This document shows, one piece after another, positions 9,684-27,608 of a DNA stretch of 64,000 nt. Source of the stretch: Mesorhizobium sp. WSM3860 (GTDB lineage Bacteria; Pseudomonadota; Alphaproteobacteria; Rhizobiales; Rhizobiaceae); NCBI RefSeq assembly GCF_002294995.1, contig NZ_NSGF01000004.1, forward strand, positions 1 to 64,000, given 5' to 3'. Under the pieces are notes generated by a model that ran no database searches, was not told the DNA's origin, and was given only the letters and a program-made list of their open reading frames with translations. The position numbers and the translations under genes are program-made. Position 1 is the stretch's first letter. Every line of letters starts with the position of its first letter.

Positions 9684-9890
9684 CTAAATGGCCGGCCGCC
9701 GGTCCTTCCATGGCATCTGCTCTTCCAACTGCGTGGAGAGCGCTAGCACAGTCGCCTCGTCGCCATAGCGGCCGACGAGCTGCATGCCGATCGGCACGCC
9801 GCCGGCGGACTGCCCAAGCGGCAGCGAGATCGCCGGCAGGCCGGAGATGTTGAAGGGAAAGTTGAAGACCGCGTCGCCCCGTTTGGCGTC
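9684..9890 (-). pseudogene. amidase (amidase-signature family), C-terminal remnant
   Basis: About 64 residues at the end of this frame match the C-terminus of amidase-signature enzymes: FNFPFNISGLPAISLPLG, then a Gly-Val-Pro-Ile-Gly-Met-Gln-Leu-Val-Gly stretch and a final helix ending Pro-Trp. The catalytic Ser-cisSer-Lys part is absent. Directly upstream lies a palindromic repeat and then the end of the next gene, so the remaining 400 or so residues have been lost. It is downstream of a Gfo/Idh gene and an ABC transporter and may be the remains of that cluster's amide hydrolase. Confidence 0.75.
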
Positions 9891-9905
9891 GTCCAGCGCC
9901 GGCGC

Positions 9906-9934
9906 CCCCTCTCCCCGTTCTTCACGGGGAAAGG
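9906..9934. repeat. palindromic intergenic repeat
   Basis: The sequence around CTCCCCGT-TCTTC-ACGGGGA forms a stem of at least seven to eight pairs flanked by further C/T- and G/A-rich pairing. Palindromes of this CTCCCCGT type are scattered between genes in Mesorhizobium and relatives. This copy sits exactly at the broken end of the amidase remnant. Confidence 0.55.
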
Positions 9935-9981
9935 GTAAGGGGGGCAGAGCCAACGGTGGCGAGTGGCCTAACCGAGCCCCG

Positions 9982-11073
9982 TCAGGTCAGCTCGACGGTC
10001 CGCTTCTCCGCGATGCTCTGTTCGGCGGCTAGCACGATGCGCAGGCTGTTGACGGCGGCATCCATCTGCTCGGTCAGATCGAGGTCCTCACGGACGGCGC
10101 GCAGGAAGAAGGCCTGCTCGCGGTCGCAAAGCTCCTGATGGCCGGGCTCGTCCTCCATGCTGACGATCTCGTCGGGCTTGGAAAAGTTCTTGTCGCCATC
10201 GACCTGCGCATAATGGATCTTCAGCGCGTCGGTCTTGGTATGGCGGTCGATGTCGGCGGAATCCGAGACCTCCTCGGCTTCCTTGGCGCTGCTTGCCGAC
10301 TGACCGGCGACGATCGAAACAGCGCCCTTCGGGCCGACCACATCCTTCACGAAATAAGCGGTCTCGCTCATCATCGGGCCCCAGCCGGCTTCATACCAGC
10401 CGACCGAGCCATCGTCAAAAGTGACGTGGAGATGGCCATAGTTCTGCTTGTCGGCTTCGGCCCAGAGCTTGGCGCCGATGCCGTGCACGCGCACCGGCTT
10501 GGCGCCGGTCAGCTGGCACATGACGTCGACATAGTGCACGCCGCAATCGACGATCGGGATCAGCGAGTCGATCAGGTTCTTGTGCCAGTGCCAGGCGCTG
10601 CCGCTGCTCTGCTGGTTGAGGTTGAGGCGCATCACCAGCGGCTTGCCGAGCGTCTTGCCGACCTCGATGAACTTGATCCAGGACGGGTGGACGCGCAGGA
10701 TGTAGCCGAGCACCAGCTTCCGGTTCTTCGCCCGCGCTGCGGCCACCACTTTCTCGGCGTCCTGGATGTTGGTGGCGAGAGGCTTTTCCATGAACACGTG
10801 GCAGTTGGCGGCGATGGCCTTCAGCGCGTATTCGGCATGCGTATTGGGCCAACTGTTGATCGAGACCGCGTCCGGCTTGGTCTCCTTCAGCGCCAAGTCG
10901 AAATCCTCATAGCGCGGATAGCCGGCGAGCTCCTTCGGGATCTTTTTGTTGCTCTTGATGGAGCGGCTCATGATGCCGACGATCTCGAAGCCGTCGGAGC
11001 GGTGATAGGCGCTGGCGTGCGAGGCGCCCATATTGCCCAGACCAACCACCAGGATTTTCACTTTGTCGGCCAT
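9982..11073 (-). CDS. Gfo/Idh/MocA-family NAD(P)-dependent dehydrogenase
   Basis: This 363-aa protein has an N-terminal Rossmann fold with VVGLGNMGASHASAY (residues 9-23) and the family motif EKPLATN at about 95-101, where Lys is the usual active-site base. The C-terminal alpha/beta domain carries a His-containing stretch (VDCGVHYVDVMCQLTG). Such enzymes oxidise or reduce sugars, inositols and other hydroxy compounds; the substrate cannot be read from sequence. A GGGGAGG ribosome site precedes the ATG. It follows the ABC substrate-binding gene by 74 bases in the same direction and is likely in its operon. Confidence 0.9.
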   Translation of the reverse strand: MADKVKILVVGLGNMGASHASAYHRSDGFEIVGIMSRSIKSNKKIPKELAGYPRYEDFDLALKETKPDAVSINSWPNTHAEYALKAIAANCHVFMEKPLATNIQDAEKVVAAARAKNRKLVLGYILRVHPSWIKFIEVGKTLGKPLVMRLNLNQQSSGSAWHWHKNLIDSLIPIVDCGVHYVDVMCQLTGAKPVRVHGIGAKLWAEADKQNYGHLHVTFDDGSVGWYEAGWGPMMSETAYFVKDVVGPKGAVSIVAGQSASSAKEAEEVSDSADIDRHTKTDALKIHYAQVDGDKNFSKPDEIVSMEDEPGHQELCDREQAFFLRAVREDLDLTEQMDAAVNSLRIVLAAEQSIAEKRTVELT

Positions 11074-11147
11074 GTCAGCCTCCCCAATGCTTTTTGAACA
11101 GTAGCTCGGGCGGCATCAGGCGCCGCCCGATGGTCAATGCGCCCGGC

Positions 11148-12320
11148 TTACTTGACGGCGGAGTCGAAGAGGTGCGCCTTGATCTCCTCGACGTCGAGCG
11201 CGGCAAAGCCTTCCGACAGTTTCACGCCGTCGGCATCGGCCTTGACCTTCGCCTTGTCGAAATCGTTGGCGGTCGGGATCAGGTCGTTGGTGCAGACGTC
11301 TTCGGCCTTCACCGGCGCGGTGATCTGGCCGATCTTGAGGATCTCGTCGAAAAAGCCCTGCCAGCTCGCCATGTCGTGCGAGCCCCAGCCATTGCGCTTG
11401 TCCATGTCACCGCGGAAGACGTTGATCTGCTGCAGGATAGAGGTGGTGCCGAGCTCGGGGCCGAGGTTCTTGGCCAGGGTCGGAAATTGCTCGAACACGG
11501 CTTCGACGGCCGCGCGCGGGTTCTGGTAGCCGAATTCGAGGCCCATCGCCCAGCCGCGCAGGTATTTTTCCAGGAAGGCCTTCTTGTCGGGATCCTCGAG
11601 GTCGGCGGCGCGCACGACGAAGGTGTTGGCCGGCAGCTTGGAATTCTGCACGCCGAGCCAATATTCGAAGTCGAGTCCCTTGGCGATCCATTCGGCGCGC
11701 AGGCCTTCCCAGGAGAGCGCTGCGTCGCCCTGGCCGCCGGCGAGCGCGGTGCCCCAGGTCGGCCAGCCAGCCTCGACATATTTTACCTTCTTGATGTCGA
11801 CGCCCTGCGCGGCAAGCAGCGGATCGACGATCGCCTGCCAGGCGGCGGAGCCGAGCAGGATGGTCTTGCCCTCAAGGTCTTTCAGGTTTTTGGTGCCCTG
11901 GCCCTTGCGGAAGGCGATGCTGAAGGTGTCGCGCGCGCCCATGTGGAACACCGACTTCAGCTTCATGCCGTTCTGGATGGCGAAGGAGAAGACACCGGGC
12001 GAGGGGAAGCCCATGTCGGCCTGGCCGACATCGACGAACTTGACCGTCGCGGTGCCGTCCGACGGACCCGGCTGCATGTCGGTCGCGAGGTCGCCGAAAT
12101 AGCCGGCCTTCTTGGCAGACCAGTAGGGATAGTCGTCCAGCACCTCGAGCGTGCCGCGCGGCGAGATCCAGGTGAATTTTTCATAAGCCGCCGCCCTGGC
12201 TTTGAGGCCCGATGCGCCGAGCGCGGTGGCTGTCACCACGCCTGCGGCCGTCACCTGCAGGAAGTAGCGGCGGCTGATGCCCGCTCTTGTCGCTGCGCTG
12301 AATAAGCTTTCGTTGGTCAT
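11148..12320 (-). CDS. NitT/TauT-family ABC transporter substrate-binding protein
   Basis: This 390-aa protein has a twin-arginine-like leader (SRRYFLQVTAAG, cleavage after about residue 44) and a periplasmic NMT1/SsuA-like fold. KFTWISPRGTLEVLDDYPYW near the mature start and VDVGQADMGFPSPGVF are typical of the family that binds nitrate, taurine, sulfonates, thiamine precursors or aromatic amides. The final segment has many acidic residues. A GGGGAA-type ribosome site precedes the ATG. The ligand is unknown, though neighbouring deacetylase, RidA and amidase genes make a nitrogen-containing compound plausible. Confidence 0.88.
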   Translation of the reverse strand: MTNESLFSAATRAGISRRYFLQVTAAGVVTATALGASGLKARAAAYEKFTWISPRGTLEVLDDYPYWSAKKAGYFGDLATDMQPGPSDGTATVKFVDVGQADMGFPSPGVFSFAIQNGMKLKSVFHMGARDTFSIAFRKGQGTKNLKDLEGKTILLGSAAWQAIVDPLLAAQGVDIKKVKYVEAGWPTWGTALAGGQGDAALSWEGLRAEWIAKGLDFEYWLGVQNSKLPANTFVVRAADLEDPDKKAFLEKYLRGWAMGLEFGYQNPRAAVEAVFEQFPTLAKNLGPELGTTSILQQINVFRGDMDKRNGWGSHDMASWQGFFDEILKIGQITAPVKAEDVCTNDLIPTANDFDKAKVKADADGVKLSEGFAALDVEEIKAHLFDSAVK

Positions 12321-12398
12321 GGCATTCCCCTTTTGTTGATTGCCCTTTATCGATCGCTTGCCTTTGCCCGCCTCCCGGGCGACCTCATCCGTCCGCGC

Positions 12399-13247
12399 TC
12401 AAGCCTCCCAGCTCGCCCATTTCTTGCCGATCAGGAAGAACAGCACGTAGATCAGGATGCCGAGCGTCGACAGGATCAGCACCACCGCGAAGAATTGCGG
12501 CATCTGGATCATCGACGAGTAGGAGGTAAGCCGGTTGCCGAGGCCGAAGCCGCCGCCGACCATCTCGGCACCTACCGCAGTGAGCAGCCCGAAGATCGCG
12601 CCGATCATCAGCCCGACCAGGATCATCGGCAGCGCCATCGGCGCGCGGATCTTCCAGAAGATCTGCAGGGTGCTGGCCCCATAGGAGCGAGCGAGCGCGA
12701 TCTTGGCGCTGTCGACACGGCGAAAGCCGGTCGCGGCATTGATCATCACCATCGGTCCGGCGGCGAGCGCTACCGCGATAATGCGCGGCGTATAGCCGAA
12801 GCCGAAGCGCAGGATGAGCAGCGGCACCAGTGCCAGCATCGGCGTGGTGACGAGGATGAGGATGTAAGGCGCGACGATCTTCTCGGCGAAGGGAAACTGC
12901 GTGATCACCGCCGCCATCAGCAGCCCGACGACGGCGCCGATGGCAAAGCCGGAGAAGAGCTCGACAAGCGTATAGCCGAGATGCGGCGCGATCAGCGGGA
13001 ATTCGTCGAATAAAGCGTAAACGATCGCACTCGGCGGCGGCATGATGTATTGCGGCACGTGGAAGATGCGCAGCGCCAGTTCGATGCCGCCGATGATCAC
13101 CACCGCGACGACGAGAATCGCCGCCACCTCGGCGCCGGACTTGACGCCCGGGCCGCCGGCGAAGGCGGAGAGGTTGGTGAGGCTGACATCCTGGCCGTCG
13201 CCGGACTTGGCCTTGGAGAATTCCGGAATGGCGTCGCCCCCGCTCAC
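12399..13247 (-). CDS. NitT/TauT-family ABC transporter permease
   Basis: This 282-aa protein starts with a GTG that overlaps the ATPase stop (GTGA). The first 40 residues are cytosolic and are followed by six or so membrane helices (from about 45). The cytoplasmic coupling loop carries the binding-protein-dependent permease EAA motif in degenerate form (ARSYGASTLQIFWKIRAPMALP). It forms the channel of the transporter with the ATPase just upstream and the binding protein 78 bases downstream. Confidence 0.9.
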   Translation of the reverse strand: MSGGDAIPEFSKAKSGDGQDVSLTNLSAFAGGPGVKSGAEVAAILVVAVVIIGGIELALRIFHVPQYIMPPPSAIVYALFDEFPLIAPHLGYTLVELFSGFAIGAVVGLLMAAVITQFPFAEKIVAPYILILVTTPMLALVPLLILRFGFGYTPRIIAVALAAGPMVMINAATGFRRVDSAKIALARSYGASTLQIFWKIRAPMALPMILVGLMIGAIFGLLTAVGAEMVGGGFGLGNRLTSYSSMIQMPQFFAVVLILSTLGILIYVLFFLIGKKWASWEA

Positions 13248-14077
13248 GGTCTGATCCTCACGATTTCAGCGCTCTTGTGTTCCAGCTGCTCCTGCGCCTT
13301 CGGCCGGCGCTCGCCGACAATGTCCATCTTGATGCGGTTGGTGAGGTCGAAGACCTCCTTGGTCGCCATGATCTCCAGCGAGCGCGGGCGCGGGAACGGC
13401 ACGTCGTAGACCTTGGCGACGCGGCCCGGCCGCGCGGTCAGCACCACGACCCGGTCGGAGAGGAAGATCGCTTCCTCGATGCTGTGGGTGATGAAAACGA
13501 TGGTCGTCTTGGTATCGAGCCAGATCTCCTCGACGAGGCGGTTCATCTCCTCGCGGGTGAAGCTGTCGAGCGCACCGAAGGGCTCATCCATCAAGAGCAC
13601 GGAAGGCTTCAGCGCCAGCGCGCGGACGATCGCCGCGCGTTGCTGCATGCCGCCGGAAAGCTCGCGCGGGAACTTGCCGCCGAAGCCGTCGAGTCCCACG
13701 CGATGAAGCAGATGCGCGATCCAGGCGCGATCGGGCTTCTCGCCCTTGATCTCGAAAGGGAAGTTGATGTTGGCGTCGAGATTGCGCCAGGGCAGAAGGT
13801 TCGCTTCCTGGAAGACGATGCCGATCTCGGGACGCGGGCCGGTGACCTCTTTGCCGTCGAGCAGTATCGCGCCGCTGGTCAGACGATGCAGGCCCGACAT
13901 CGACCACAAGAGCGTGGTCTTGCCGCAGCCGGAAGGGCCGACGATGGAGACGATCTCGTTGGCGTGCACGTCGAGGCTGCAGCGGTCCAGGGCGAGAAGA
14001 TCGCCGGAGGCCGTGGTATAAACCTTGCTCGCTGCCTGCACGCCGAGCTTCGGCGTTCTTGCGCTGCCGGTATTCAT
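13244..14077 (-). CDS. NitT/TauT-family ABC transporter ATP-binding protein
   Basis: This 277-aa ATPase has Walker A GPSGCGKTT (about 47-55), Q-loop EANLLPWRNL, signature LSGGMQQRAAI, Walker B VLLMDEPFGALD and switch His in FITHSIEEA. All catalytic motifs are intact. It is the first gene of the transporter operon (ATPase, permease, binding protein, Gfo/Idh, amidase remnant), and its upstream spacer is shared with the divergent RpiR regulator, the likely repressor. Confidence 0.92.
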   Translation of the reverse strand: MNTGSARTPKLGVQAASKVYTTASGDLLALDRCSLDVHANEIVSIVGPSGCGKTTLLWSMSGLHRLTSGAILLDGKEVTGPRPEIGIVFQEANLLPWRNLDANINFPFEIKGEKPDRAWIAHLLHRVGLDGFGGKFPRELSGGMQQRAAIVRALALKPSVLLMDEPFGALDSFTREEMNRLVEEIWLDTKTTIVFITHSIEEAIFLSDRVVVLTARPGRVAKVYDVPFPRPRSLEIMATKEVFDLTNRIKMDIVGERRPKAQEQLEHKSAEIVRIRP

Positions 14078-14138
14078 GCTCCCCTCGGAGACTGCGTGAT
14101 TGGGTTGCCGGAGCCCCCGCTGTCCGCAAAATCAGTCT

Positions 14139-14264
14139 GTAACTATCCTACTTTACTGTCAAGCGGCGGCAAAGATCTGGCGCTCTCAGATTCGGTCAAA
14201 GCTTATCTAAGCGTCTGATTTTTCCCAGCTTTAGATCCGCTTGCAGTGTGTGTTACTTTCCTAC
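14139..14264. promoter_or_regulatory. paired operator-like sites between the ABC operon and rpiR
   Basis: GTAACTATCCTAC (14139-14151) and GTTACTTTCCTAC (14252-14264) are direct copies with 11 of 13 bases identical. The first has GTA/TAC palindromic ends. Both lie in the 273-base divergent spacer, which also holds a short palindrome GCTTATCTAAGC at 14201-14212. One copy lies close to each gene start, the layout expected for an RpiR-type regulator controlling both sides. Function is inferred. Confidence 0.45.
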
Positions 14265-14350
14265 ATACTTCCTTCAGCTCATTGCCTATGGCCAGCGGGC
14301 TGATAATCGCAACAATGGTGGGTCCAGAAACGGCAGAGAAGGACTGGCCA

Positions 14351-15298
14351 ATGACCGAAGCTGACAGCCAGGCGCTGCGGATTTCCGACGAGGATGACGG
14401 CCGGCACGATCATGTCAGGCGCTTCCCGGACATCATTTCGCAGGTGAAGGACAGCTACACGGACTTGCGGCCGGCGGAGCGCCGCGTCGCCGACGTCGTG
14501 CTCGACGACGTCAAATATGCGGTCGATGCATCGAATGCCGCGCTGGCGCAGCGCGCCCAGGTCAGCGAGCCGACGGTCACCCGTTTCTGCCGCGCCATCG
14601 GCTGCGACGGCGTGCGCGACTTCAAGCTGAAGCTGGCGCAGAGCCTTGTCGTCGGCGCGCTTTATCTCAGCACCAAGCCGCAATCCACGAACGGCGACAG
14701 CGGCATGCCGTTCTGGAACGCAGTGTTCGGCGAAGCGCGCCGCGCGCTGCAGGAGGCCGAACGGCAGATCGATCCAGGGCAGTTGCAGAAAGCGGCGGAG
14801 CTGATCGCCAAGGCAAGGCAGGTGACGGTGTTCGGCCTCGGCGGCAGCTCGTCGGCGCTGGCGCAAGAGACGCAGTATCGCCTGTTTCGCTATGGCATCA
14901 CGATCAGCGCGCAATGCGATCCGTATCTGATGCGTATGACGGCTTCGACGCTGAAGCCGGGCGACGTGGTGATCGCGATCTCGGCGACCGGCCGTACCCG
15001 CGAGGTGATCGAGGCGGTGGAACTTGCCAAGCATTATCGCGCCGACGCAATCTGCGTGACGGCGCCGGACACGGAGCTGACGCGGGTCTGCGATGTCCGG
15101 CTGACGATGGCGGTTCCCGAATATCCCGACACGCTGAAGCCGACCGCTTCGCGGTACGCCTTTCTTGCGGCCATCGACCTGCTCGCGGTCGCGTCCGCCT
15201 ACAAGCTGGACGGCCCGGCGCGCGAGACGGTGCGCCGCATCAAGTACAACGCCCAGATCCATCGGACGGGGAAGGAGATGGAGCCGCTCGGCGACTGA
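14351..15298 (+). CDS. MurR/RpiR-family transcriptional regulator
   Basis: The ATG at 14351 follows GAGAAGGA with seven-base spacing and is preferred over three in-frame upstream ATGs. The 315-aa product has an N-terminal RpiR helix-turn-helix domain (about 25-105, with NAALAQRAQVSEPTVTRFCR) and a SIS sugar-phosphate-binding domain (about 135-270, FGLGGSSSALAQE and ISATGRTREVIE). It is divergent from the ABC operon and 52 bases upstream of the monooxygenase, so it probably controls both. Confidence 0.92.
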   Translation: MTEADSQALRISDEDDGRHDHVRRFPDIISQVKDSYTDLRPAERRVADVVLDDVKYAVDASNAALAQRAQVSEPTVTRFCRAIGCDGVRDFKLKLAQSLVVGALYLSTKPQSTNGDSGMPFWNAVFGEARRALQEAERQIDPGQLQKAAELIAKARQVTVFGLGGSSSALAQETQYRLFRYGITISAQCDPYLMRMTASTLKPGDVVIAISATGRTREVIEAVELAKHYRADAICVTAPDTELTRVCDVRLTMAVPEYPDTLKPTASRYAFLAAIDLLAVASAYKLDGPARETVRRIKYNAQIHRTGKEMEPLGD

Positions 15299-15350
15299 GA
15301 AATAGCCGCAACGCGGCTATAATCTGCGTAATTCAGGGGAATGAAGAACA

Positions 15351-17141
15351 ATGCTCGACATCGCACCATCGCAACAGGCGGCAACCTGGCTCGGCACATT
15401 CGGCCGCGCGCTCGAAGCGGGTGACATCGCGGCGGCGACGAACCTTTTCGTGGACGATTGCTACTGGCGCGATCTGCTGACCTTCACATGGAACATCAAA
15501 ACCATGGAGGGCCAAGCGGCGGTCCGCGAGATGCTCAAGGCGACGCTTTCCTCGACGCAACCGTCGCACTGGCGAGTGTCCGGGGAGCCAAGCGTCGACG
15601 ACGGTGTCATCGAGGCCTGGTTCAGCTTCGAGACGGCCGTGGCGCGAGGCGAGGGCATCCTGCGGCTCAAGGATGGCCGCTGCCGGACGCTGTTCACGGC
15701 GATGAGCGCGCTCAAGGGTTTCGAGGAGCAGAAAGGGCCGGCCCGGCCGCTCGGCATCCGCCACAAGGCCGATCCCGAACGCGAAACCTGGGCGGAAGCA
15801 AGAGCGCGCGAGGCGCGTGAGCTCGGCGTGCACGAGCAGCCCTATTGCCTGGTGATCGGGGGCGGCCAGGGCGGCATCATGCTCGGCGCCCGGCTGCGGC
15901 AGCTCGGCGTTCCCACCCTCATCGTCGAGAAGAACGCGCGGGCCGGCGACTCCTGGCGCAACCGCTACCGCTCGCTCGTGCTGCACGACCCGGTCTGGTA
16001 CGACCATCTGCCCTACATTCCGTTCCCGGAAAACTGGCCGGTGTTCACGCCCAAGGACAAGATGGGCGACTGGCTGGAAATGTATGCCCGCGTCATGGAG
16101 CTGAACTACTGGGTCGCCACCAAATGCATCAGCGCGGCCTATGACGAGGCCGAAAAGGTCTGGACGGTGGTGGTCGACCGCGTCGGCCAGCGCATCACGC
16201 TGAAGCCGAAGCACATCGTCTTCGCCACCGGCGCCTACGGGCCGCCGCGGCAGATCGATCTGCCTGGCGCGGACAGCTTCAAGGGCGAGCTTTTGCATTC
16301 CAGCCAGTACTCGGCCGGCGAGAAATTCCGCGGCAAGCGCGTCGCGGTGATCGGCGCGGCGAGCTCGGGCCATGATGTCAGCGTCGATCTCTGGGAAGCC
16401 GGCGCCAAGGTCACCATGGTGCAGCGCTCGCCGACGACCGTGGTGAAGTCCGACACGCTGATGGAGGTCGGCTTCGAGATCTTTTCAGAGAAGGCGCTGG
16501 CGCGGGGTATCACCACCGACAAGGCCGACATGATCGTCGCTTCGACGCCCTTTGCGCTGGTCCCAAAGGGCCAGCGGGCGCTCTATGACGTCATCCGCGA
16601 GCGCGACGCGGATTTCTACCAGCGCCTCAGCGACAGCGGCTTTGCCATCGACTTCGGCGAGGACGAGACCGGACTGCTCATGAAAGCCTATCGCACCGGC
16701 TCCGGCTACTACATCGATGTCGGCGCCTGCGAGCTGATCCTGAACGGCGAGATCGCAGTGAAGAGCGGCGTCGGCATCAGATCGCTGACGCCGACCGGCA
16801 TCCTGTTCGAGGACGGCAGCGAGCTTGCGGTCGACGCGATCGTCTCCTGCACCGGCTACCAGTCGATGAACGAGACGGTGGCAGCGATCGTTTCGCGCGA
16901 GGTCGCCGACAAGGTCGGGCCGTGCTGGGGCCTCGGCTCCGGCGTCAAGGGCGACCCCGGCCCGTGGCAGGGCGAACTGCGCAACATGTGGAAGCCGACG
17001 GCGCAGGAAGCGCTGTGGTTCCACGGCGGCAACCTCGCGCTGTCGCGCTTCTATTCGAAATTGGTGGCGCTGCAGCTCAAGGCGCGGATGGAGGGGATTG
17101 CCACGCCTGTCTATGGCGAGCCGAGCAACGCACAGCGGTGA
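15351..17141 (+). CDS. flavin-dependent monooxygenase with N-terminal NTF2-like domain
   Basis: This 596-aa protein has two parts. Residues 1-145 form an NTF2/SnoaL-like domain (WRDLLTFTWNIKTMEG, LKDGRCRTLFTAM). From about 160 there is a class B flavoprotein monooxygenase: FAD site VIGGGQGGIMLGARL (about 167), the FMO fingerprint FKGELLHSSQY with Phe310 fitting F-x-G-x3-H-x3-Y, NADPH site VAVIGAASSGHDVSVDL (about 325), and VSCTGYQS near the end. Such enzymes oxygenate N- or S-centred substrates or ketones; related fused proteins occur in amine and heterocycle catabolism. It is co-oriented with rpiR. The product is cytosolic; the substrate is unknown. Confidence 0.9.
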   Translation: MLDIAPSQQAATWLGTFGRALEAGDIAAATNLFVDDCYWRDLLTFTWNIKTMEGQAAVREMLKATLSSTQPSHWRVSGEPSVDDGVIEAWFSFETAVARGEGILRLKDGRCRTLFTAMSALKGFEEQKGPARPLGIRHKADPERETWAEARAREARELGVHEQPYCLVIGGGQGGIMLGARLRQLGVPTLIVEKNARAGDSWRNRYRSLVLHDPVWYDHLPYIPFPENWPVFTPKDKMGDWLEMYARVMELNYWVATKCISAAYDEAEKVWTVVVDRVGQRITLKPKHIVFATGAYGPPRQIDLPGADSFKGELLHSSQYSAGEKFRGKRVAVIGAASSGHDVSVDLWEAGAKVTMVQRSPTTVVKSDTLMEVGFEIFSEKALARGITTDKADMIVASTPFALVPKGQRALYDVIRERDADFYQRLSDSGFAIDFGEDETGLLMKAYRTGSGYYIDVGACELILNGEIAVKSGVGIRSLTPTGILFEDGSELAVDAIVSCTGYQSMNETVAAIVSREVADKVGPCWGLGSGVKGDPGPWQGELRNMWKPTAQEALWFHGGNLALSRFYSKLVALQLKARMEGIATPVYGEPSNAQR

Positions 17142-17146
17142 CGTTC

Positions 17147-17388
17147 GATCTCCCCCCTCAAGGCAGGGCAATCGCATATGGAACTGCCGAGTCTTTGCAA
17201 CGGCTTAGTCGTTACGGGCGACTTTTGTAGGCGTTCGATCGCGCTATTCCGGCGGAATCGGATCCAGAACGGACCAGAATCAAACCGCGAACTGCTCGCG
17301 TCGACGATTTTCTTGGTGCCCAGCCAAGTATCTGGAAAACCGAGAAAATAGCCATATGCGATTCCCCTGCCCCTCAAGGGGGGAGATC
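17147..17388. mobile_element. MITE-like element with 35-37 bp terminal inverted repeats
   Basis: The left arm (17147-17181) starts GATCTCCCCCCTCAAGG and ends ATCGCATATGG. The right arm (17352-17388), read on the other strand, starts GATCTCCCCCCTTGAGG and ends AATCGCATATGG, so the two match over about 35 bases with a few indels. The 170-base interior has no convincing gene; a possible 88-codon minus-strand frame across it has no homology I recognise and no ribosome site. The element fills the whole space between two convergent genes and its right end overlaps the stop codon of the metallohydrolase gene. It could be a non-autonomous transposable element or a rhizobial intergenic mosaic repeat. 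Confidence 0.6.
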
Positions 17389-18613
17389 ATCCCCGCCCGA
17401 AGTGCCTGGCCGCAACCTCGACATGCGTATGGTGCGCATGGGCCTCGAAGCGCTCGGTCTCACTGTGGTCGGGCGCCTCGTTCGGCCACCATTTGCCGCC
17501 GATGACGATGCCATTGGAAACCAGCCGCTGGTCCGCGATCAGTGAGGCGCCGACGGCGTCGACGAAGGTGAAGCGGCCGGGCTGCAGCCTCAGCACCGCG
17601 ACATCGCCGATGCCGCCGACTTTAAGCGCGCCGAACTCGGGCCTGGCGATGGCTTCGGCGGGGCGCTGCGTTGCCGCGCGCACGACCTCGACCAGCGGCA
17701 TGCCGAGCGCCATCAGCTTCGACATGCAGACCAAGATGTCGAATGCCGGGCCGTCGACGCAGTAGAGATGCACATCGCTCGAGATGACGTCCGGCGCCAG
17801 TCCCTCCGCCAGCATCGCCTTCGCCACCTCGAAGTCGAAGGAGCCCATGCCGTGGCCGATGTCGAAGATGACGCCGCGCTCGCGCGCCAGCCGCATATCC
17901 GGCCGCACTGCGCCCGAAGCGAAGACCGGCGCGTTGGGGAACGGCCGAAAGCAGTGCGTGAGGATGTCGCCGCGGCGGAGCCTGGGCAGCACTTCCGAGC
18001 GGCCGGGCGGCGGCTCGTCGATATGAGCCATCAGCGGCAGGCCGGCTTGGTCCGCGGCTTCGAGCGCGAGGTCGACCGGCGCGATGCCGCTGGTGCCGCC
18101 GGCATGCTTGCCGGAACGCACTTTCACGCCGACGACGACAGCGGCGTGCTCGCGCACCGCGGCCACCGTCTCGCGCGGCTCGCAGAGCCTGAGATCGCTG
18201 CATTCGCCGACGGATACGGTCTCGGCGAAGCCGAATATGCCGGCAAACGAGATGTTGACGTAAGCGAGGATGCGGACCTTCGAACGCTCGATGACATGGC
18301 GGCGGAAACCGAGAAAATTGCCGGCGCCGGCGCTGCCGGCATCGATGAAGGTGGTGGTGCCGCTCTTGGCGGCGAGACGGTCGGCGTCGACGCCGAGCGA
18401 GGTGCCGCCCCAATAGACGTGGCTGTGCAGGTCGACAAGCCCGGGCGTGACGATGCAGTCCCTGGCGTCGACGACCTCACCGGCGGCCTGGGAATCGATG
18501 GCCACTTCGATCGCGGCGATTCGGCCATCGGCGACGGCGATGTCGCGCGGCGCATCCAACCCGGAAGCCGGGTCGATCACACGGCCGCCCTTGAGCAACA
18601 GATCGAACTGCAT
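17387..18613 (-). CDS. deacetylase/dihydroorotase-like metallohydrolase
   Basis: This amidohydrolase-superfamily enzyme has 408 aa. The metal ligands are visible: DLHSH (HxH, about 61-65), a Lys in GVKVRSGKHAGG that is typically carbamylated, AHIDEPP, ILTHCF and the late Asp in SSDVHLYC. N- and C-terminal beta-sandwich segments flank the barrel (LLLKGGRVIDP; GDVAVLRL). It resembles the EF_0837/AHA_3915-type deacetylases that act on N-acetylated or cyclic amide substrates. GGAGGCG precedes the ATG. RidA lies 29 bases upstream in the same direction, so the two are probably co-transcribed. Confidence 0.88.
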   Translation of the reverse strand: MQFDLLLKGGRVIDPASGLDAPRDIAVADGRIAAIEVAIDSQAAGEVVDARDCIVTPGLVDLHSHVYWGGTSLGVDADRLAAKSGTTTFIDAGSAGAGNFLGFRRHVIERSKVRILAYVNISFAGIFGFAETVSVGECSDLRLCEPRETVAAVREHAAVVVGVKVRSGKHAGGTSGIAPVDLALEAADQAGLPLMAHIDEPPPGRSEVLPRLRRGDILTHCFRPFPNAPVFASGAVRPDMRLARERGVIFDIGHGMGSFDFEVAKAMLAEGLAPDVISSDVHLYCVDGPAFDILVCMSKLMALGMPLVEVVRAATQRPAEAIARPEFGALKVGGIGDVAVLRLQPGRFTFVDAVGASLIADQRLVSNGIVIGGKWWPNEAPDHSETERFEAHAHHTHVEVAARHFGRG

Positions 18614-18642
18614 TCCGCGCCTCCGTTGTTGTCTGGCCGCGA

Positions 18643-19008
18643 TCAGACCGGCCGGTAGGCGACGGCCTCGATCTCGATCTTGATGTCGATCATCAGCCGG
18701 GACTCGACGGTGGTGCGCGCCGGCGGGTCGTTCGGGAAGTGCCTGGCATAGACCGTGTTGAAGGCACCGAAATCGCGGGCGTCCTCGAGCCAGACGGTGG
18801 TCTTCACCACGTCGTCCATGGTGCAGCCGGCTAGCGCCAGCGCAGCCTTGACGTTCTGCAGGACCTGCTCGGCCTGGTCAGTTATGCCGCCCTTGACCAC
18901 CAGGCCGTCGCTGCCCACCGGCACCTGGCCGGAGACATAGACGAAATCGCCGGCGCGGACGGCGGGCGAGAGCGGGACATGCGATTTTCCAAAACACTGC
19001 TTGGGCAA
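18643..19008 (-). CDS. RidA-family enamine/imine deaminase, TTG start
   Basis: The product is a 121-aa RidA/YjgF/UK114 protein with SPAVRAGDFVYVSGQVPV at about 13-30, the active-site Arg in ARTTVES and the end motif IKIEIEAVAYRP. The frame is open to 19116, but the usual N-terminus (xPKQCFGKSHV) begins at a TTG at 19008. That TTG follows CAGGAG with six bases between, so TTG is the chosen start. RidA hydrolyses reactive enamines and imines formed by PLP enzymes or amine oxidation, consistent with nitrogen-compound breakdown next to a deacetylase. Confidence 0.9.
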   Translation of the reverse strand: MPKQCFGKSHVPLSPAVRAGDFVYVSGQVPVGSDGLVVKGGITDQAEQVLQNVKAALALAGCTMDDVVKTTVWLEDARDFGAFNTVYARHFPNDPPARTTVESRLMIDIKIEIEAVAYRPV

Positions 19009-19202
19009 ATGAAACTCCTGTCGTCGAGCGTGAGGACCGTCCTTGCAGCCGTCTACGCTTGTAGAGGCGATCCTCCTAGAGGCGATGTCGGAAAGCAACA
19101 TTTTTTCGAAATTCATGTTGCTTTATTACAAATCCTGAGCATCCTGCACCCCCGAAACCGGGACCGGTGGGTTGCTGATCGAACGCAAGGGGAAGAACCA
19201 GC
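19009..19202. promoter_or_regulatory. divergent spacer between ridA-type gene and NTF2-like gene
   Basis: This 194-base region must hold both promoters. It contains a direct repeat TAGAGGCGAT at 19062-19071 and 19077-19086 (starts 15 bases apart) next to CTACGCTTGTAG, a small inverted repeat. These may be a regulator site; no consensus was matched. Confidence 0.3.
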
Positions 19203-19688
19203 ATGACCTTTGACAGGAATCCGTTTCCGGAAGGCGATGCCGATCGCCATGCGCTGTGGGAAATGCTCGTGCGGCGCGACATCGACGCCTTCCTCGGCCA
19301 GGACTGGTCGTTGGTCGAGGACGACTTCATCGCCGAAAGCTTCTTCGGCATGCATGCGCATTTCCTTGCCAATGCCGACTCCTGGCGGCTGCAGTTTCCC
19401 CGGCTGGAAGTCTATCGCGACGAGTGGCTACGGCAGGCCAAGGAGACCGCGGCGACGAAATTCGCCGAGCCGCTGCGCGAGGCAATTTTCCGCGTCACCA
19501 ACCTGCGCGATATCGACGTCGATGGCGACCGTGCGGTGCTGCACAAGAAGTTCGACGGCTCGATCGCCAAGGCCGACGGCAGCTTCGACCGCCTCAAATG
19601 GCAGACGCTCTACTTCTGCCGCAAGGTCGGCGGGCGCTGGAAAATTGCTGGTTTCGTCGGCTACATGCCGCATCCGCTCGGAAGCTAA
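19203..19688 (+). CDS. NTF2-like (SnoaL-type) protein
   Basis: This 161-aa cytosolic protein shows the alpha+beta cone pattern of NTF2-like proteins: an N-terminal helix bundle (HALWEMLVRRDIDAFLGQDW), then beta strands (DGDRAVLHKKFDG, TLYFCRKVGGRWKIAGFVGY). The ATG follows AAGGGGAAG at good spacing. Similar proteins act as small hydrolases or isomerases or as binding modules; none can be specified here. It is divergent from the RidA gene, and the monooxygenase 2 kb away carries a domain of the same fold. Confidence 0.75.
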   Translation: MTFDRNPFPEGDADRHALWEMLVRRDIDAFLGQDWSLVEDDFIAESFFGMHAHFLANADSWRLQFPRLEVYRDEWLRQAKETAATKFAEPLREAIFRVTNLRDIDVDGDRAVLHKKFDGSIAKADGSFDRLKWQTLYFCRKVGGRWKIAGFVGYMPHPLGS

Positions 19689-21884: not shown

Positions 21885-24800
21885 GTGGGCGTTTCTCGTT
21901 CGTCAAAGGAACAATTCGATTCTCGTCAGATTCTCAACGCCCTCAAAGCCTTTCGAAACGGTGACTTCTCCGTCCGCATCGAGAATGTCTATGAAGGGTT
22001 GAACGGCGAAATCGCTGACACATTCAATCAGATCGTCGAGTTGAACGACCAGGTGGCGCGGGAATTTGCGCGGCTAAGCAGGGTCGTCGGCAAGGACGGC
22101 CGCATCGGCGAACGCGGCCATGTGAGGAACGCCAAAGGCAGCTGGGAATCGAGTGTCCGCTCGGTCAACGACCTGATCGAGGACATGGTGCAGCCCACGG
22201 CGGAAGTTGCCCGCGTCATCGGCGCGGTCGCCAAGGGCGACCTATCCCAATCCATGATGGTGGAAATCGACGGCAGGCCGCTTCGTGGCGAATTCCTGCG
22301 CATCGGCAAAATCGTCAACACCATGGTTGAGCAGCTCGCCTCCTTCACGTCGGAGGTGACGCGTGTGGCGCGCGAGGTCGGCACCGAAGGCAAGCTGGGC
22401 GGTCAGGCACGCGTCAGGGGGGCGGCGGGCACGTGGAAGGACCTGACCGACAATGTCAACGCGATGGCGACCAACCTGACCAGCCAGGTGCGCAACATTG
22501 CGGAGGTGACCACGGCTGTCGCGTCTGGCGACTTGTCGAAGAAGATCACCGTCGACGTGAAGGGCGAGATCCTCGAACTGAAGAACACCATCAACACGAT
22601 GGTGGACCAGCTCAACTCCTTCGCTTCGGAGGTGACCCGCGTCGCGCGTGAGGTCGGCACCGAGGGCAAACTCGGAGGCCAGGCCCGTGTCGAGGGCGTC
22701 GGCGGTACTTGGAAGGACCTCACCGACAGCGTCAACCTGATGGCCGCCAACCTGACCGGCCAGGTTCGCAACATCGCCGATGTGACGACGGCGGTGGCTT
22801 TGGGCGACCTCTCCAAGAAGATTACAGTCGACGTGAAAGGCGAAATCCTGGAACTGAAATCGACCATCAACACCATGGTCGATCAGCTCAACTCATTTGC
22901 CGGCGAGGTGACGCGCGTGGCGCGCGAGGTCGGCACGGAAGGCAAGCTCGGCGGCCAAGCACAGGTGCGCGGTGTCGCCGGCACCTGGAAGGACCTGACC
23001 GACAACGTCAATTCCATGGCTGCGAATCTTACCGGTCAGGTGCGCAACATCGCCGAAGTGACGACCGCGGTGGCCCTGGGTGACCTCTCGAAGAAGATCA
23101 CAGTCGATGTGAAGGGCGAGATCCTGGAACTCAAGAACACCATCAACACGATGGTGGACCAGCTGAACTCCTTCGCCTCGGAAGTTACACGCGTGGCGCG
23201 CGAAGTCGGCACCGAGGGCAAGCTGGGGGGCCAAGCCGAAGTCCGTGGAGTCGGCGGCACGTGGAAGGACCTGACGGACAACGTCAACCTGATGGCCGCC
23301 AATCTGACCGGGCAGGTGCGCAATATCGCCGATGTGACCACGGCCGTTGCAAGGGGCGACCTTTCGAAAAAGATCACTGTCGATGTGAAGGGCGAAATCC
23401 TCGAACTGAAGAACACCGTCAACACCATGGTGGACCAGCTCAATTCCTTCGCGTCGGAGGTCACCCGCGTGGCGCGCGAAGTGGGCTCGGAAGGCAAGCT
23501 GGGAGGTCAGGCCCACGTCGAGGGCGTCGGCGGCACCTGGAAGGATCTGACCGATAACGTCAACGCGATGGCCGGCAATTTGACCGTGCAATTGCGCGAC
23601 GTCTCCAAGGTCGCGACCGCCATCGCCACCGGCGACCTGACCCAGAAGATCACCGTCGACGCCCTGGGCGAAATCCTGCAGATCAAGGACGTCATCAACA
23701 CGATGGTGGACCAGTTGAACTCCTTCGCCTCGGAGGTGACGCGCGTCGCCCGCGAAGTGGGTTCCGACGGCAAGCTTGGCGGCCAGGCGCAGGTACGCGG
23801 CGTTGCCGGCACCTGGAAGGACCTCACCGACAACGTCAACGCCATGGCCGCCAATCTCACGGGCCAAGTGCGCAACATTGCGGAGGTGACCACGGCCGTC
23901 GCACTCGGCGATCTGTCGAAAAAGATCACGGTCGATGTGCGCGGTGAAATCCTGGAGCTCAAGGACACCATCAACACGATGGTGGACCAATTGAACTCGT
24001 TTGCCTCGGAAGTGACGCGCGTGGCGCGCGAGGTCGGCACCGAAGGCAAGCTCGGCGGTCAGGCCCAGGTGCGCGGCGTCGCCGGCACCTGGAAGGACCT
24101 GACCGACAACGTCAACTCGATGGCCGAGAACCTCACCGGTCAGGTTCGCAACATCGCCGAAGTTACCACAGCGGTGGCGCGAGGCGACCTGTCCAAGAAG
24201 ATCACCGTCGATGTCAAAGGTGAAATCCTGGAGCTGAAGTCGACCATCAACACCATGGTCGACCAGCTCAACTCGTTCGCCGGCGAGGTGACGCGCGTGG
24301 CGCGCGAGGTCGGCACCGAAGGCAAGCTCGGCGGTCAGGCTCGGGTGGAAGGTGTGGCCGGTACCTGGAAGGACTTGACCGACAACGTCAATCTGATGGC
24401 GACCAATCTGACCAACCAGGTGCGCGGCATTGCCGACGTCGTCACCGCCGTTGCCCAGGGCAATCTGAAGCGCAAGCTTGCGGTCGATGCCAAGGGCGAG
24501 ATCGCTTCGCTGGCGGACACGATCAACGGCATGATCGAGACGCTGGCGACCTTCGCGGATCAGGTGACCAACGTGGCTCGCGAGGTCGGCATCGAGGGCA
24601 AGCTCGGCGGCCAGGCCAGGGTGCCGGGCGCCGCCGGCCTATGGCGCGACCTGACCGACAACGTCAATCAGCTGGCGGCGAACCTGACGACCCAGGTCCG
24701 GGCCATCGCCGAAGTGTCGACCGCGGTCACCAAGGGCGACCTCACCCGCTCGATCAGCGTGCAAGCTTCCGGTGAGGTCGCTGCGTTGAAGGACAACATC

Positions 24801-27608
24801 AACGAGATGATCCGCAACCTCAAGGACCAGACCTTGAAGAATGCCGAGCAGGATTGGCTGAAGACCAATCTCGCTCGTTTCTCGCGCATGCTGCAGGGCG
24901 AGCGGGACCTTGCCACGGTGTCGCGGATGATCATTTCCGAGCTCGCGCCGCTGGTGAACGCGCAATACGGCCTGTTCTACGTCACCAATCGCGACGTGGA
25001 AGAATCCTATCTGGAACTGGCCGCGTCCTACGCCGCCGAAGGCAGGGCCACCGTCCGCCAACGAGTCGACTTCCGGGAAGGCCTGATCGGGCAGTGCGCC
25101 GCCGACAAACGGCCAATCATGCTCGATGACGTCCCATCGAGCTTCCTGCGCATCACCTCCGGCCTGGGTGAGGCCCCACCGGCGAGCGCCATCGTCCTGC
25201 CGGCATTGTTCGAGGACGAGGTCAAGGCGGTTATCGAACTCGCTTCGTTCAGCCGGTTCAGCGATACGCACCGCCTTTTCCTGGAGCAGCTCATGGAATC
25301 GGTCGGTATCGTGCTCAACACGATCGCCGCGACCATGCGCACGGAAGGCCTTCTCAAGCAATCGCAGCTCCTGACGTCCGAACTGCAATCGCGCCAGACC
25401 GAGCTCACCAAGAAGCAGGAAGAGCTTCACGCTACCAATGAGGAACTGCAGGAAAAGGCGCAACTGCTCGAGAATGAAAAGAAGCAGGTGGAAAACAAGA
25501 ATCTCGAGATCGAGATGGCCAGGAGGGCGCTGGAGGAGAAGGCCGAGCAACTGGCGCTGACCTCCAAATACAAATCCGAATTCCTGGCGAACATGAGTCA
25601 CGAGCTGAGGACGCCGCTGAATTCGCTGTTGATCCTGTCCAATCTGCTTGCGACCAATCAGCAGGGGAATCTGAACGACAAGCAGATCGAGTTCGCGCGC
25701 ACGATCAACTCGGCAGGTACCGACCTGCTCAGCCTCATCAACGACATACTGGATCTTTCCAAGATCGAGTCCGGCACGGTATCGATCGAAATCAACGACA
25801 TGCCGCTCGCACACCTGCGCCAGCATATGGAGCGGACTTTCAGACAGCTTGCGGCGGACAAAGGGCTCGGCTTCACCATCAAGATCGAGCAGGCGCTGCC
25901 TGACACGATCCGCACGGACGAAAAGCGGCTGCAGCAGATCGTGCTCAATCTGCTGTCAAATGCCTTCAAATTCACTTCCAACGGCGAGGTGATCCTGAAC
26001 ATCCATGGCGAGACAACCGGCCGCAAAAACGGTGCGACGCCGCCCCGGGCGTTGGCGATCGCCGTTACCGATACCGGGATCGGCATTCCGGAAGACAAGC
26101 AAAAGCTCATCTTCGAGGCGTTTCAGCAGGCCGACGGCACGACCAGCCGCAAATATGGCGGCACTGGCCTCGGCCTTTCCATCAGCCGGGAAATCGCCCG
26201 ACTGCTCGGCGGCGAGCTGCGCGTCGAAAGCGAGCCAGGCAAGGGATCGACCTTCACATTGGTCATCCCGTTCGACGGCCCGCGCAGCAGCAGCCTGGCG
26301 GCACCGATCGAACTTTCGCCTGCCGACGTCATCGCGGCGGGCGTCCAGCCAGCAGACACCTCGGGTACCCCAGAACTTACCGACGATCGTGACTCGATCA
26401 ATCCGTCGGACAGGGTGGTGCTTATCGTCGAGGACGACCCGACTTTCGGAGGGCTGCTGCTCGGTCTTGCTCGATCCGCCGGACTGAAGGGGGTGCTTTC
26501 AACGGCCGGCTCCGGCACGCTGGCACTCACCCGCAAGCTCATGCCCGATGCGATCACGCTCGATCTCGGCCTTTCAGACATCGACGGCTGGGTGCTTTTC
26601 GACCTTCTGCGGCATGACCAGAAGACCAGGAACATTCCGATCCATGTCATCTCCGGCGCCGAGGATCTCGACCTGCTGACGCGCAGGGGCGCTGCCAGCG
26701 TTTCGAGCAAGCCGGTTTCGGCCGGTGAGCTCGCCCGCGTTTTCGAGGAAATCCATTCACGGAACCTGAGGGTGCAGCGCAACGTGCTGATCGCCGATCC
26801 CGACCCCGAGCGCCGCCTGGCCCTGGTGGAAGCCATTCGCGATGGCATCACCTCGGTCATCGCGGTCGGCCGTGTCGCCGCCAACGCGGACGAGGCGGGC
26901 GCCGCCGCGTACGATGCGATTGTTTTCGGGTTTGGGCGTTCGGCCAAGGACAACGCCCAGATGCTCGACGAAATTATGTCTCAGTTCAACGACGCCCTAC
27001 CGCGCCTGCTGTTTTTCACGCCGCATCCCGATGCCTTTCTGCAGCAGGTCGCACTGCATCCGGCACTCGGCGATGTCCCACGTGCCGACAATTTCGGCCA
27101 GCTCGGGCTCCTGATCTCGGCGGCACTGCCAAGCGACACGCATAGCGAGCAGATTTTGGCCACCGAGCAGGTCGACAATGCCGATCTCGCCGGCGCCAAG
27201 GTTCTGATCGTCGACGACGACATTCGCAATATCTACTCGTTGACCAGCGTGCTGGAAACCTACGACATTGATGTGCAGCATGCCGAACGGGGCCGGGACG
27301 GCGTCGCTTTACTCGAAGAAACACCCGACGTCGACGTGGCCCTGATCGACATCATGATGCCGGAAATGGACGGCTACGAAACCATGCGTCGGATTCGCGC
27401 CATGCCCGCGATAGCCCATATTCCATTGATCGCGGTTACAGCCAAGGCGATGAAAGGCGACCGTCAGAAATGCCTGGACGCCGGCGCATCCGACTACATC
27501 GCCAAGCCGGTCGACCTCGATCTGCTGCTTGCGTTGCTGCGGGTTTGGATCGGTCGCGCGCGAGCGCGGGCTGAGCCCTTTGCACCGGCATTGATGACCG
27601 CCATCTGA
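21885..27608 (+). CDS. giant multi-HAMP hybrid histidine kinase (group III / Nik1-like)
   Basis: A GTG at 21885 with GGAGG six bases upstream starts a 1907-aa protein with no membrane segment. Residues 1-146 include a diverged HAMP-type unit. Residues 147-974 are nine HAMP units of exactly 92 aa (each with EVG-x-x-GKLGGQA and a W-x-DLTDNVN core). A GAF domain (about 1000-1145) and a coiled coil (1150-1225) follow, then HisKA with His1239 in SHELRTPLN, HATPase ([28 protein letters not shown]), a receiver with Asp1560, a degenerate receiver and a final receiver with Asp1822 ([11 protein letters not shown]). The layout matches fungal osmosensor Nik1 and its bacterial counterparts. A role in osmotic sensing or multi-site phosphorelay is inferred. 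Confidence 0.93.
22323..24806 (+). repeat. nine in-frame tandem repeats of exactly 276 bp inside the kinase gene
   Basis: From the ATG at 22323 to the ATG at 24807 is 2484 bases, nine times 276. Units 1-8 are highly alike at the DNA level (for example CGCGAGGTCGGCACCGAAGG and GTGAAGGGCGAGATCCT recur); the ninth is most diverged. Each unit encodes one HAMP module. Confidence 0.9.

Follow-up and report, generated by a model that had tools for sequence, protein, structure and literature searches.

A gene cluster around a single MurR/RpiR-family regulator in Mesorhizobium sp. WSM3860 is real and conserved: since its parts recur together in relatives and two of its promoters have an operator-like motif in common, the gene set is not a chance neighbourhood. 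The cluster lies in a 64-kb stretch of the 6.37-Mb genome (G000, contig 34), which was analysed as a whole and is called here the window; coordinates are positions in it unless another contig or locus is named. We propose, with a probability of roughly 45%, that the cluster serves the RpiR-controlled uptake and breakdown of one small organic compound through a Baeyer-Villiger route. A preliminary description of this DNA had listed an importer, a dehydrogenase, a monooxygenase, a metallohydrolase, RidA and an NTF2-like protein around one RpiR gene and had read them as a catabolic region; open reading frame (ORF) and domain searches retrieved all of these genes, and the catabolic interpretation stands as the best reading. 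The Gfo/Idh/MocA-family dehydrogenase (hereafter Gfo) and the NitT/TauT-type importer are encoded on the minus strand, with the regulator and a flavin monooxygenase (FMO) divergent from them on the plus strand; beyond the FMO an amidohydrolase/deacetylase and RidA follow on the minus strand, and a small NTF2-like gene is divergent on the plus strand (Table 1).

In order to assess conservation, 247 Rhizobiaceae genomes were searched with the FMO and with Gfo. An FMO match at E ≤ 1e-50 was present in 85 of them, and the cluster type of the enzyme in 26 (24 at ≥64% identity, besides G066 and G077, whose enzymes are 60-61% identical and stand beside a cluster-type Gfo). Among the matches listed, cluster-type Gfo occurs in 27 genomes (25 near-whole sequences at ≥74%, and fragments at 82-84% in G066 and G077) and the two enzymes coincide in 24 of the 247, for which the hypergeometric probability, kinship being ignored, is 7e-28. 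The preliminary description would have counted its reading as refuted if the genes were not kept together in any relative, and this outcome was not observed. The cluster-type FMO was found without Gfo in G217 and in G049, where the contig ends at the binding-protein gene. When 20 of the 26 FMO loci (L036-L055) were compared over about 9 kb on each side, Gfo and the three importer genes were seen at 18, an amidohydrolase of the family at 17, RpiR at 16, the NTF2-like gene at 12, RidA at ten and the amidase at nine of them.

The sister clade of FMOs ("solo") served as control, with 19 loci (L056-L073 and L075; L064 covers just 11 kb, and L074, which has no FMO, was omitted). At E 1e-5 no Gfo, binding protein, RpiR, amidohydrolase or RidA was found at any of the 19, although unspecific matches to ATPases, permeases, SDRs and M24 peptidases did occur; with these partner genes in 0 of 19 loci, these homologues were rejected as carriers of the same pathway. 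This second clade of N-terminally extended type II FMOs, about 56-61% identical to the cluster enzymes, is common in the family without the cluster. In two trees the cluster and solo enzymes were separated by a 100/100 branch (29 against 19 rows without L030 and L031, and 34 against 19 rows with these two but without L039, which has a stop inside the matched stretch), a split that is partly built in because identity was the criterion by which the majority of cluster rows had been chosen. Some genomes are represented twice (L042 equals L083, and L052 equals L084). The FMOs of L090, L091, L095 and L097, for which Gfo had been the query, group with the cluster enzymes as well. As drawn, the second tree places one cluster row beside the solo rows, owing to the position of the midpoint root.

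Beyond the family, the Gfo alignment search returned at least 80 loci, many with distant Gfo proteins. Among the matches listed, Gfo, importer and FMO occur together in Devosia limi (L086) and in metagenome-assembled genomes of Rhodobacteraceae (L090), Pseudorhodobacter antarcticus (L091) and Geminicoccaceae (L095). L090 contains the D-threonine-aldolase-like enzyme, SDR, RidA, FMO, importer, Gfo, amidase, amidohydrolase and RpiR, and since these parts are arranged in a different order there, their association is more likely to be functional than simply a matter of descent. In a combined set of 49 loci (the window, L036-L055, L076-L097, L099, L102, L160-L162 and L164), mostly picked by Gfo or FMO, partly redundant and counted on rough ORF calls which make every count a lower bound, Gfo was present at least 47 times, the binding protein and the permease at least 40 times each, the ATPase and the FMO at least 38 times each, RpiR and the amidohydrolase at least 34 times each, RidA at least 23, the NTF2-like protein at least 20, the SDR at least 18, the amidase at least 16, an unannotated 392-residue protein at least 13 and the D-threonine-aldolase-like enzyme at least nine times.

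The second line of evidence is a 15-bp near-palindrome which recurs in the gap between the ATPase and RpiR genes and in the gap between RidA and the NTF2-like gene or an SDR gene. Its pattern TGTWRNTWTNYTACA, drawn up from the sites themselves, is present at ≤1 mismatch four times in the window, where 100 shuffles averaged 0.03, and without mismatch three times in the whole genome (14251, 19116 and C1:249479) against none for the reversed control. A one-mismatch genomic hit (C12:217099) lies inside a gene and was taken as chance. The gaps were examined in 38 loci, with the window counted among the ATPase-RpiR and RidA-NTF2 gaps: an exact site was found in 29 of 31 ATPase-RpiR gaps (31 of 31 within one mismatch), in 15 of 16 RidA-NTF2 gaps and in seven of eight RidA-SDR gaps, where the miss is L090 and five loci overlap with the RidA-NTF2 set, while none of 15 amidase-Gfo gaps had one. 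Furthermore, exact matches in 81 genomes of the same genus numbered 134 (control: 39), and 30 of these genomes carry two exact sites 4.4-6.7 kb apart.

The regulator itself clearly exceeds the Pfam cut-offs for HTH_6 (63.6 bits against 28.3) and SIS (60.9 against 25), and it does not reach the NCBIfam model of HexR (218.5 bits, cut-off 296). In the window the sites are paired, 113 bp and 30 bp apart from start to start. The part of the literature available on RccR, an RpiR-family regulator of Pseudomonas, describes binding to TGTAGTTTTACTACT and TGTAGTAAAACTACA, 15-bp sites 68 bp apart (PMC5489143). The TGTWR-N5-YTACA pairs of the window resemble these proven paired 15-bp palindromes (TGTAGT/ACTACA), and therefore one RpiR protein probably controls both arms and the cluster would be one regulon, with RpiR predicted to bind the candidate sites. 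RccR and HexR are described in the same part of that source as regulators of central carbon metabolism that act through KDPG (2-keto-3-deoxy-6-phosphogluconate) (PMC5489143), a role in which the regulator of the window would differ from them. The third exact site, on contig C1, is identical to the one at 14251 and lies in the divergent promoter of an operon (L170, G000:C1:240000-259900) that has a separate RpiR (39% identical) and an SDR sharing 51-53% identity with those of related clusters. It also encodes what the translations suggest to be a sugar-type ABC importer and an M81-like peptidase. This operon may be cross-regulated with the cluster.

The monooxygenase carries most of the chemical argument. 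It aligns to JsFMO (PDB 8ACS) over residues 19-591 (E 4.9e-229), and through this alignment a SnoaL/NTF2-like N-terminal domain of about 160 residues can be recognized, fused to the monooxygenase domain; the NTF2 fusion claimed in the preliminary description was thus confirmed, though the SnoaL_2 domain itself scored 24.2 bits, below its cut-off of 27. His-216, Asp-217, Tyr-458, Arg-571 and Arg-363 of JsFMO correspond to His212, Asp213, Tyr453, Arg566 and Arg359 in the window, the first four of which are invariant in nine aligned cluster sequences. The models of ArsO and trimethylamine monooxygenase matched far under their cut-offs. Judged from these similarities the enzyme is a type II FMO near JsFMO, of predicted Baeyer-Villiger type, an assignment that speaks for a ketone substrate and not for hydroxylation of a ring. 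Of the two substrates suggested earlier, an N-acylated amine is a candidate at most, and a nitrogen heterocycle is unsupported. In the available part of its description JsFMO is a Baeyer-Villiger FMO which accepts both NADPH and NADH and gives only acetate products with two linear ketones (PMC10028610). The genome of the window contains no other match to its own FMO above 34%.

The remaining enzymes are compatible with steps on either side of such an oxygenation. Gfo has a well-supported Rossmann domain (PF01408, 101.6 bits against a cut-off of 24) and an EKP motif at residues 96-98; none of the named NCBIfam equivalogs compared with it (inositol dehydrogenase, UDP-GlcNAc 3-dehydrogenase and others) was reached, the best giving 100 bits against 450, and its nearest named relative is that of Mesorhizobium L076 (98% identity). 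The amidohydrolase scored 444.8 bits with NF006689 (cut-off 371). Its H63, H65, K164, H197, H220 and D280, invariant in seven sequences and common to 2ogj, 2ics and 8je0, provide the HxH, Lys, His, His and Asp which we take to be the metal ligands. It resembles the PRK09237/EF_0837-type amidohydrolases (2ogj, 2ics, 8je0 and 8wzy; presumably cog3964 in older naming) in that model and metal site, and differs from them by a C-terminal tail with HFG in six of seven aligned cluster hydrolases. One member of the family, Atu3266, is said to hydrolyse acetyl-(R)-mandelate, which our literature search did not confirm; an esterase adjoining an FMO that makes acetate esters would be chemically sensible.

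RidA scored 105.1 bits with TIGR00004 (cut-off 106.25), exceeded the PF01042 threshold of Pfam, and retains the arginine of the PPAR motif, to which we assume a functional role. Since the operator-like site at 19086-19100 lies inside its longest ORF, a later start, such as TTG 19008, is preferred; a start at 18978 was ruled out, the codon there being GTC. The AlphaFold model of the small NTF2-like protein was poor (pLDDT 54.7) and unusable. The binding protein of the importer begins with SRRYFLQV, presumably a Tat-like twin-arginine signal, and its solved relatives at E ≤ 0.001 comprise one binding protein only, whose name carries no assigned ligand. An SRRxFLQV-type start is also found on the binding proteins of several relatives, which would imply Tat export.

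The preliminary description also counted an amidase remnant within the region 9982-19688. The remnant is real and lies outside this span, at 9687-9959, and its end is close to a repeat-like, GC-rich sequence (CCCCTCTCCCC...GGGGAAAGGG, 9684-9990). The gene is intact in L036 of the same genus (478 residues, between kdpA and Gfo), and no amidase stands between Gfo and kdpA in L076. Elsewhere in the genome of the window the best intact match is just 40% identical over residues 12-404, so there is no clear stand-in for the lost enzyme. The amidase being dead here, amide cleavage by this enzyme is gone at the locus, and the deacetylase-like hydrolase could still remove an N-acyl group. The solved structure nearest to the intact amidases of relatives is 6-aminohexanoate-cyclic-dimer hydrolase, a similarity which hints at lactam or amide cleavage.

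From these parts the following route can be proposed. The compound would be taken up by the NitT/TauT-type ABC importer, Gfo would oxidise a hydroxyl group to a ketone, and the FMO would insert an oxygen beside it in a Baeyer-Villiger reaction to form an ester or a lactone; from a methyl ketone the product might be an acetate ester. The amidohydrolase-fold enzyme would then cleave this ester, or remove an N-acyl group, and RidA would hydrolyse an imine or enamine arising on the way, these four enzymatic roles being those expected of the respective families. In many relatives the amidase, or a D-threonine-aldolase-like pyridoxal phosphate (PLP) enzyme with an SDR, would add further steps and, like RidA, act on the nitrogen; in the strain of the window the amidase is lost and the PLP homologue lies elsewhere in the genome. 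RpiR would bind the paired 15-bp sites in the ATPase-RpiR and RidA-NTF2 divergent promoters, and the binding of an intermediate to its SIS domain would release both arms. The analysis demonstrates the gene content, its conservation, the active-site residues and the operator-like motif; every reaction, the order of the reactions, the binding of RpiR and its ligand are what we infer.

The same genes might also serve an amino-sugar acid or another N-acetyl D-amino-acid-like compound: the hydrolase would deacetylate, a PLP enzyme would deaminate or split the product with the assistance of RidA, RpiR would repress, and Gfo and the FMO would act on the carbon skeleton or a side chain. The model for this would be the ong cluster of Pseudoalteromonas, which handles the oxidised chitin sugar GlcNAc1A and, in the part of its description that was available, encodes a repressor of the MurR/RpiR family, a D-aminoacylase with deacetylating function, a hexosaminidase, transporters, a fold-III PLP deaminase that is distant kin of D-threonine aldolases, and a RidA essential in vivo (PMC9537276). 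Related clusters likewise contain RpiR, a deacetylase-type hydrolase, RidA, the D-threonine-aldolase-like enzyme (at least 9 of the 49 loci) and the 392-residue protein (at least 13 of the 49; L055:17560-18738, L096:3401-4594, L090:13655-14842 and others). The latter has no Pfam match, and its model is a glycoside-hydrolase-like TIM barrel (pLDDT 79.1), nearest, among the matches listed, to Cwp19, PgaB and GH156 enzymes, with Foldseek query TM-scores of just 0.53-0.60 in the best 13 rows, a point against this reading. In the genome of the window the paralogue of this TIM-barrel protein (39%; C23:459216-460382, L197:9214-10398) has neighbours whose translations read as deacylase, RidA and PLP deaminase, and the next Gfo paralogue (56%) stands among genes reading as NagA-like, SIS, kinase and sugar-importer proteins. 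These contexts, together with the related clusters, suggest that the compound is N-acylated and resembles an amino sugar or a D-amino acid, but they prove nothing.

At the window locus itself, however, neither a fold-III PLP deaminase nor the TIM-barrel protein was seen. The best genomic homologue of the relatives' PLP enzyme is 62% identical and lies apart from the cluster (C11:1157-2197), with no operator-like site at ≤1 mismatch in the first 12 kb of its contig, and the importer is not of the sugar type. The likeness to ong (MurR/RpiR regulator, deacetylating hydrolase and RidA, and in relatives the PLP enzyme and the glycoside-hydrolase-like protein) is one of overall composition. The accessible part of the ong description shows TonB-dependent and SSS transport, KdgK and a hexosaminidase, and no FMO, Gfo dehydrogenase, NitT/TauT importer or amidase was found in it (PMC9537276). 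On balance an ong-like function of the cluster appears unlikely.

Another reading makes the FMO an N- or S-oxygenase of an amine or sulfur compound, whose product would decay to an imine cleared by RidA, an acyl group being taken off by the hydrolase. The importer, of the taurine/nitrate/sulfonate class, would fit a nitrogen or sulfur source, RidA is present, type II FMOs also perform sulfoxidation according to the available part of the JsFMO paper (PMC10028610), and the ArsO and trimethylamine monooxygenase matches, faint as they were, lie in this direction. Yet the closest full-length solved enzyme is a Baeyer-Villiger FMO with the same His, Asp, Tyr and Arg, which in the accessible part of its description converts sulfides poorly (PMC10028610), and the dehydrogenase and hydrolase suit a ketone route better; we regard such an oxygenase as rather improbable. 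That importer operon, FMO and deacetylase-RidA genes merely stand side by side with separate functions is very improbable: one arm can be lost without the other (L038), the FMO of G160 lies about 37 kb from RpiR and the importer with Gfo on another contig, and the amidase is dead in the strain of the window, but the parts recur, rearranged, across families, and a near-exact palindrome absent from the amidase-Gfo gap is common to both divergent promoters.

Several observations weigh against the Baeyer-Villiger route under RpiR control. In the motif FxGxxxHxxx[YF][KR] the enzyme of the window reads FKGELLHSSQYS, with S instead of K/R at the last position; the accessible part of the JsFMO paper gives low activity on linear ketones (PMC10028610), and the ong cluster, as far as its description was available, needs no Baeyer-Villiger step (PMC9537276). 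Among the matches listed, Gfo occurs without a cluster-type FMO in G004, G035 and G131, and G217 has kept RpiR, FMO, hydrolase, RidA and the NTF2-like gene in the absence of importer and Gfo there. For 10 of the 20 cluster FMOs compared no RidA was seen in the neighbourhood, and L052-L055 have a different amidohydrolase (45-48% identical) on the opposite flank; some steps are thus not universal. The operator pattern was composed after the sites had been seen, and among the 30 same-genus genomes with two exact sites 4.4-6.7 kb apart, a position at the cluster was established for the pairs of the window, L036 and L037. A pattern made from the first promoter only gave four genomic matches at ≤1 mismatch (19086 included) against one in the control, and was rejected at ≤2 mismatches with 27 matches against 29; being this close to its control, it leaves only near-exact sites meaningful. 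Finally, the exact site before the C1 operon, with its own RpiR, means that the site may be common to two regulators.

A more specific form of the Baeyer-Villiger proposal would be a new alphaproteobacterial catabolic pathway centred on N-extended type II FMOs of a clade of its own. Its substrate would be an N-acylated natural product, possibly resembling an amino sugar or a cyclitol, and the FMO would cleave a keto intermediate derived from it. The carbon step would thus be of Baeyer-Villiger type and the nitrogen step ong-like, both being controlled by an RpiR whose operator is newly defined. This extended version is doubtful. In the open-access literature searched no description of the gene set was found, in agreement with the preliminary description, to which the combination was not a known pathway.

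Among characterized systems, routes consisting of a dehydrogenase, a Baeyer-Villiger monooxygenase and an esterase exist for cyclohexanol and acetophenone, and the three kinds of step could be assigned to Gfo, FMO and hydrolase here. In those pathways the dehydrogenase and the esterase come from other families, and the clusters described here have in addition a dedicated NitT/TauT importer, RpiR control, RidA and amidase. The Rut pyrimidine pathway resembles the cluster by a RidA/RutC-like protein near a flavin monooxygenase; it was rejected on the RutC model (68.8 bits, cut-off 169.1), and the monooxygenase of the window is, as we take it, a two-Rossmann FMO and not RutA-type. The group of type II FMOs with an N-terminal extension includes JsFMO, FMO-E, -F and -G of R. 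jostii and PsFMO A-C, and the window enzyme agrees with JsFMO in the near full-length alignment, the SnoaL-like N-domain, the catalytic His/Asp/Tyr/Arg and the NADPH-type Arg. In contrast to the window enzyme, with its conserved genetic context and candidate operator, JsFMO came from genome mining and was tested on model ketones, as far as the available part of its description goes (PMC10028610).

Table 1. Features of the cluster and their positions in the window.
Feature	Position	Strand	Basis or remark
Amidase-signature gene remnant	9687..9959	-	74% identity to residues 388-478 of the intact 478-aa amidase L036:1874-3310
Gfo/Idh/MocA-family NAD(P) dehydrogenase	9982..11073	-	PF01408 E 6e-29; 80-97% identity to 9 relatives; GLGNMG, EKP
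NitT/TauT (NMT1/THI5-like) substrate-binding protein	11148..12320	-	domain search
ABC permease	12399..13247	-	domain search
ABC ATPase (taurine/nitrate type)	13244..14077	-	domain search
Operator-like site TGTAACTATCCTACT	14138..14152	+	1 mismatch to pattern
Operator-like site TGTTACTTTCCTACA	14251..14265	+	exact; one of 3 exact genomic matches
MurR/RpiR-family regulator	14351..15298	+	HTH_6 and SIS; start ATG 14351 preferred
Type II flavin monooxygenase with SnoaL/NTF2-like N-terminal domain, predicted JsFMO-like Baeyer-Villiger type	15351..17141	+	PDB 8ACS alignment, active-site residues, trees
PRK09237/EF_0837-type amidohydrolase/deacetylase, putative ester or amide hydrolase	17387..18613	-	NF006689 above cut-off; 2ogj, 8je0, 2ics, 8wzy
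RidA-type imine/enamine hydrolase	18643..19008 (longest ORF to 19116)	-	PF01042 E 2.5e-32; start unsure, TTG 19008 preferred
Operator-like site TGTTGCTTTCCGACA (minus-strand letters)	19086..19100	-	motif search
Operator-like site TGTTGCTTTATTACA	19116..19130	+	exact genomic match
Small NTF2-like protein, fold weakly supported	19203..19688	+	DUF4440 18.9 bits, cut-off 25.2; 90-94% identity to 5 relatives

The cluster is flanked by kdp genes on one side and by a HerA-like ATPase gene on the other, the latter adjoined by an ORF of 1907 residues (21885-27608). Between the FMO and amidohydrolase genes a MITE-like (miniature inverted-repeat transposable element) sequence of about 240 bp (17147-17388), whose inverted ends measure about 35 nt, shares two bases with the end of the amidohydrolase ORF. 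Six copies, 78-100% identical, are present in the genome; in the C1 operon the RpiR gene ends about 60 bp from another copy (C1:246358-246584).

If the proposed route is true, the N-extended type II FMOs would gain a natural role. These enzymes have been studied as biocatalysts, and in the accessible part of the JsFMO paper a search for the words physiological, natural substrate, native substrate, gene cluster and operon returned nothing (PMC10028610); the conserved clade makes their purpose a testable question. Additionally, the operator-like motif provides a way to the inducer that does not depend on a known substrate.

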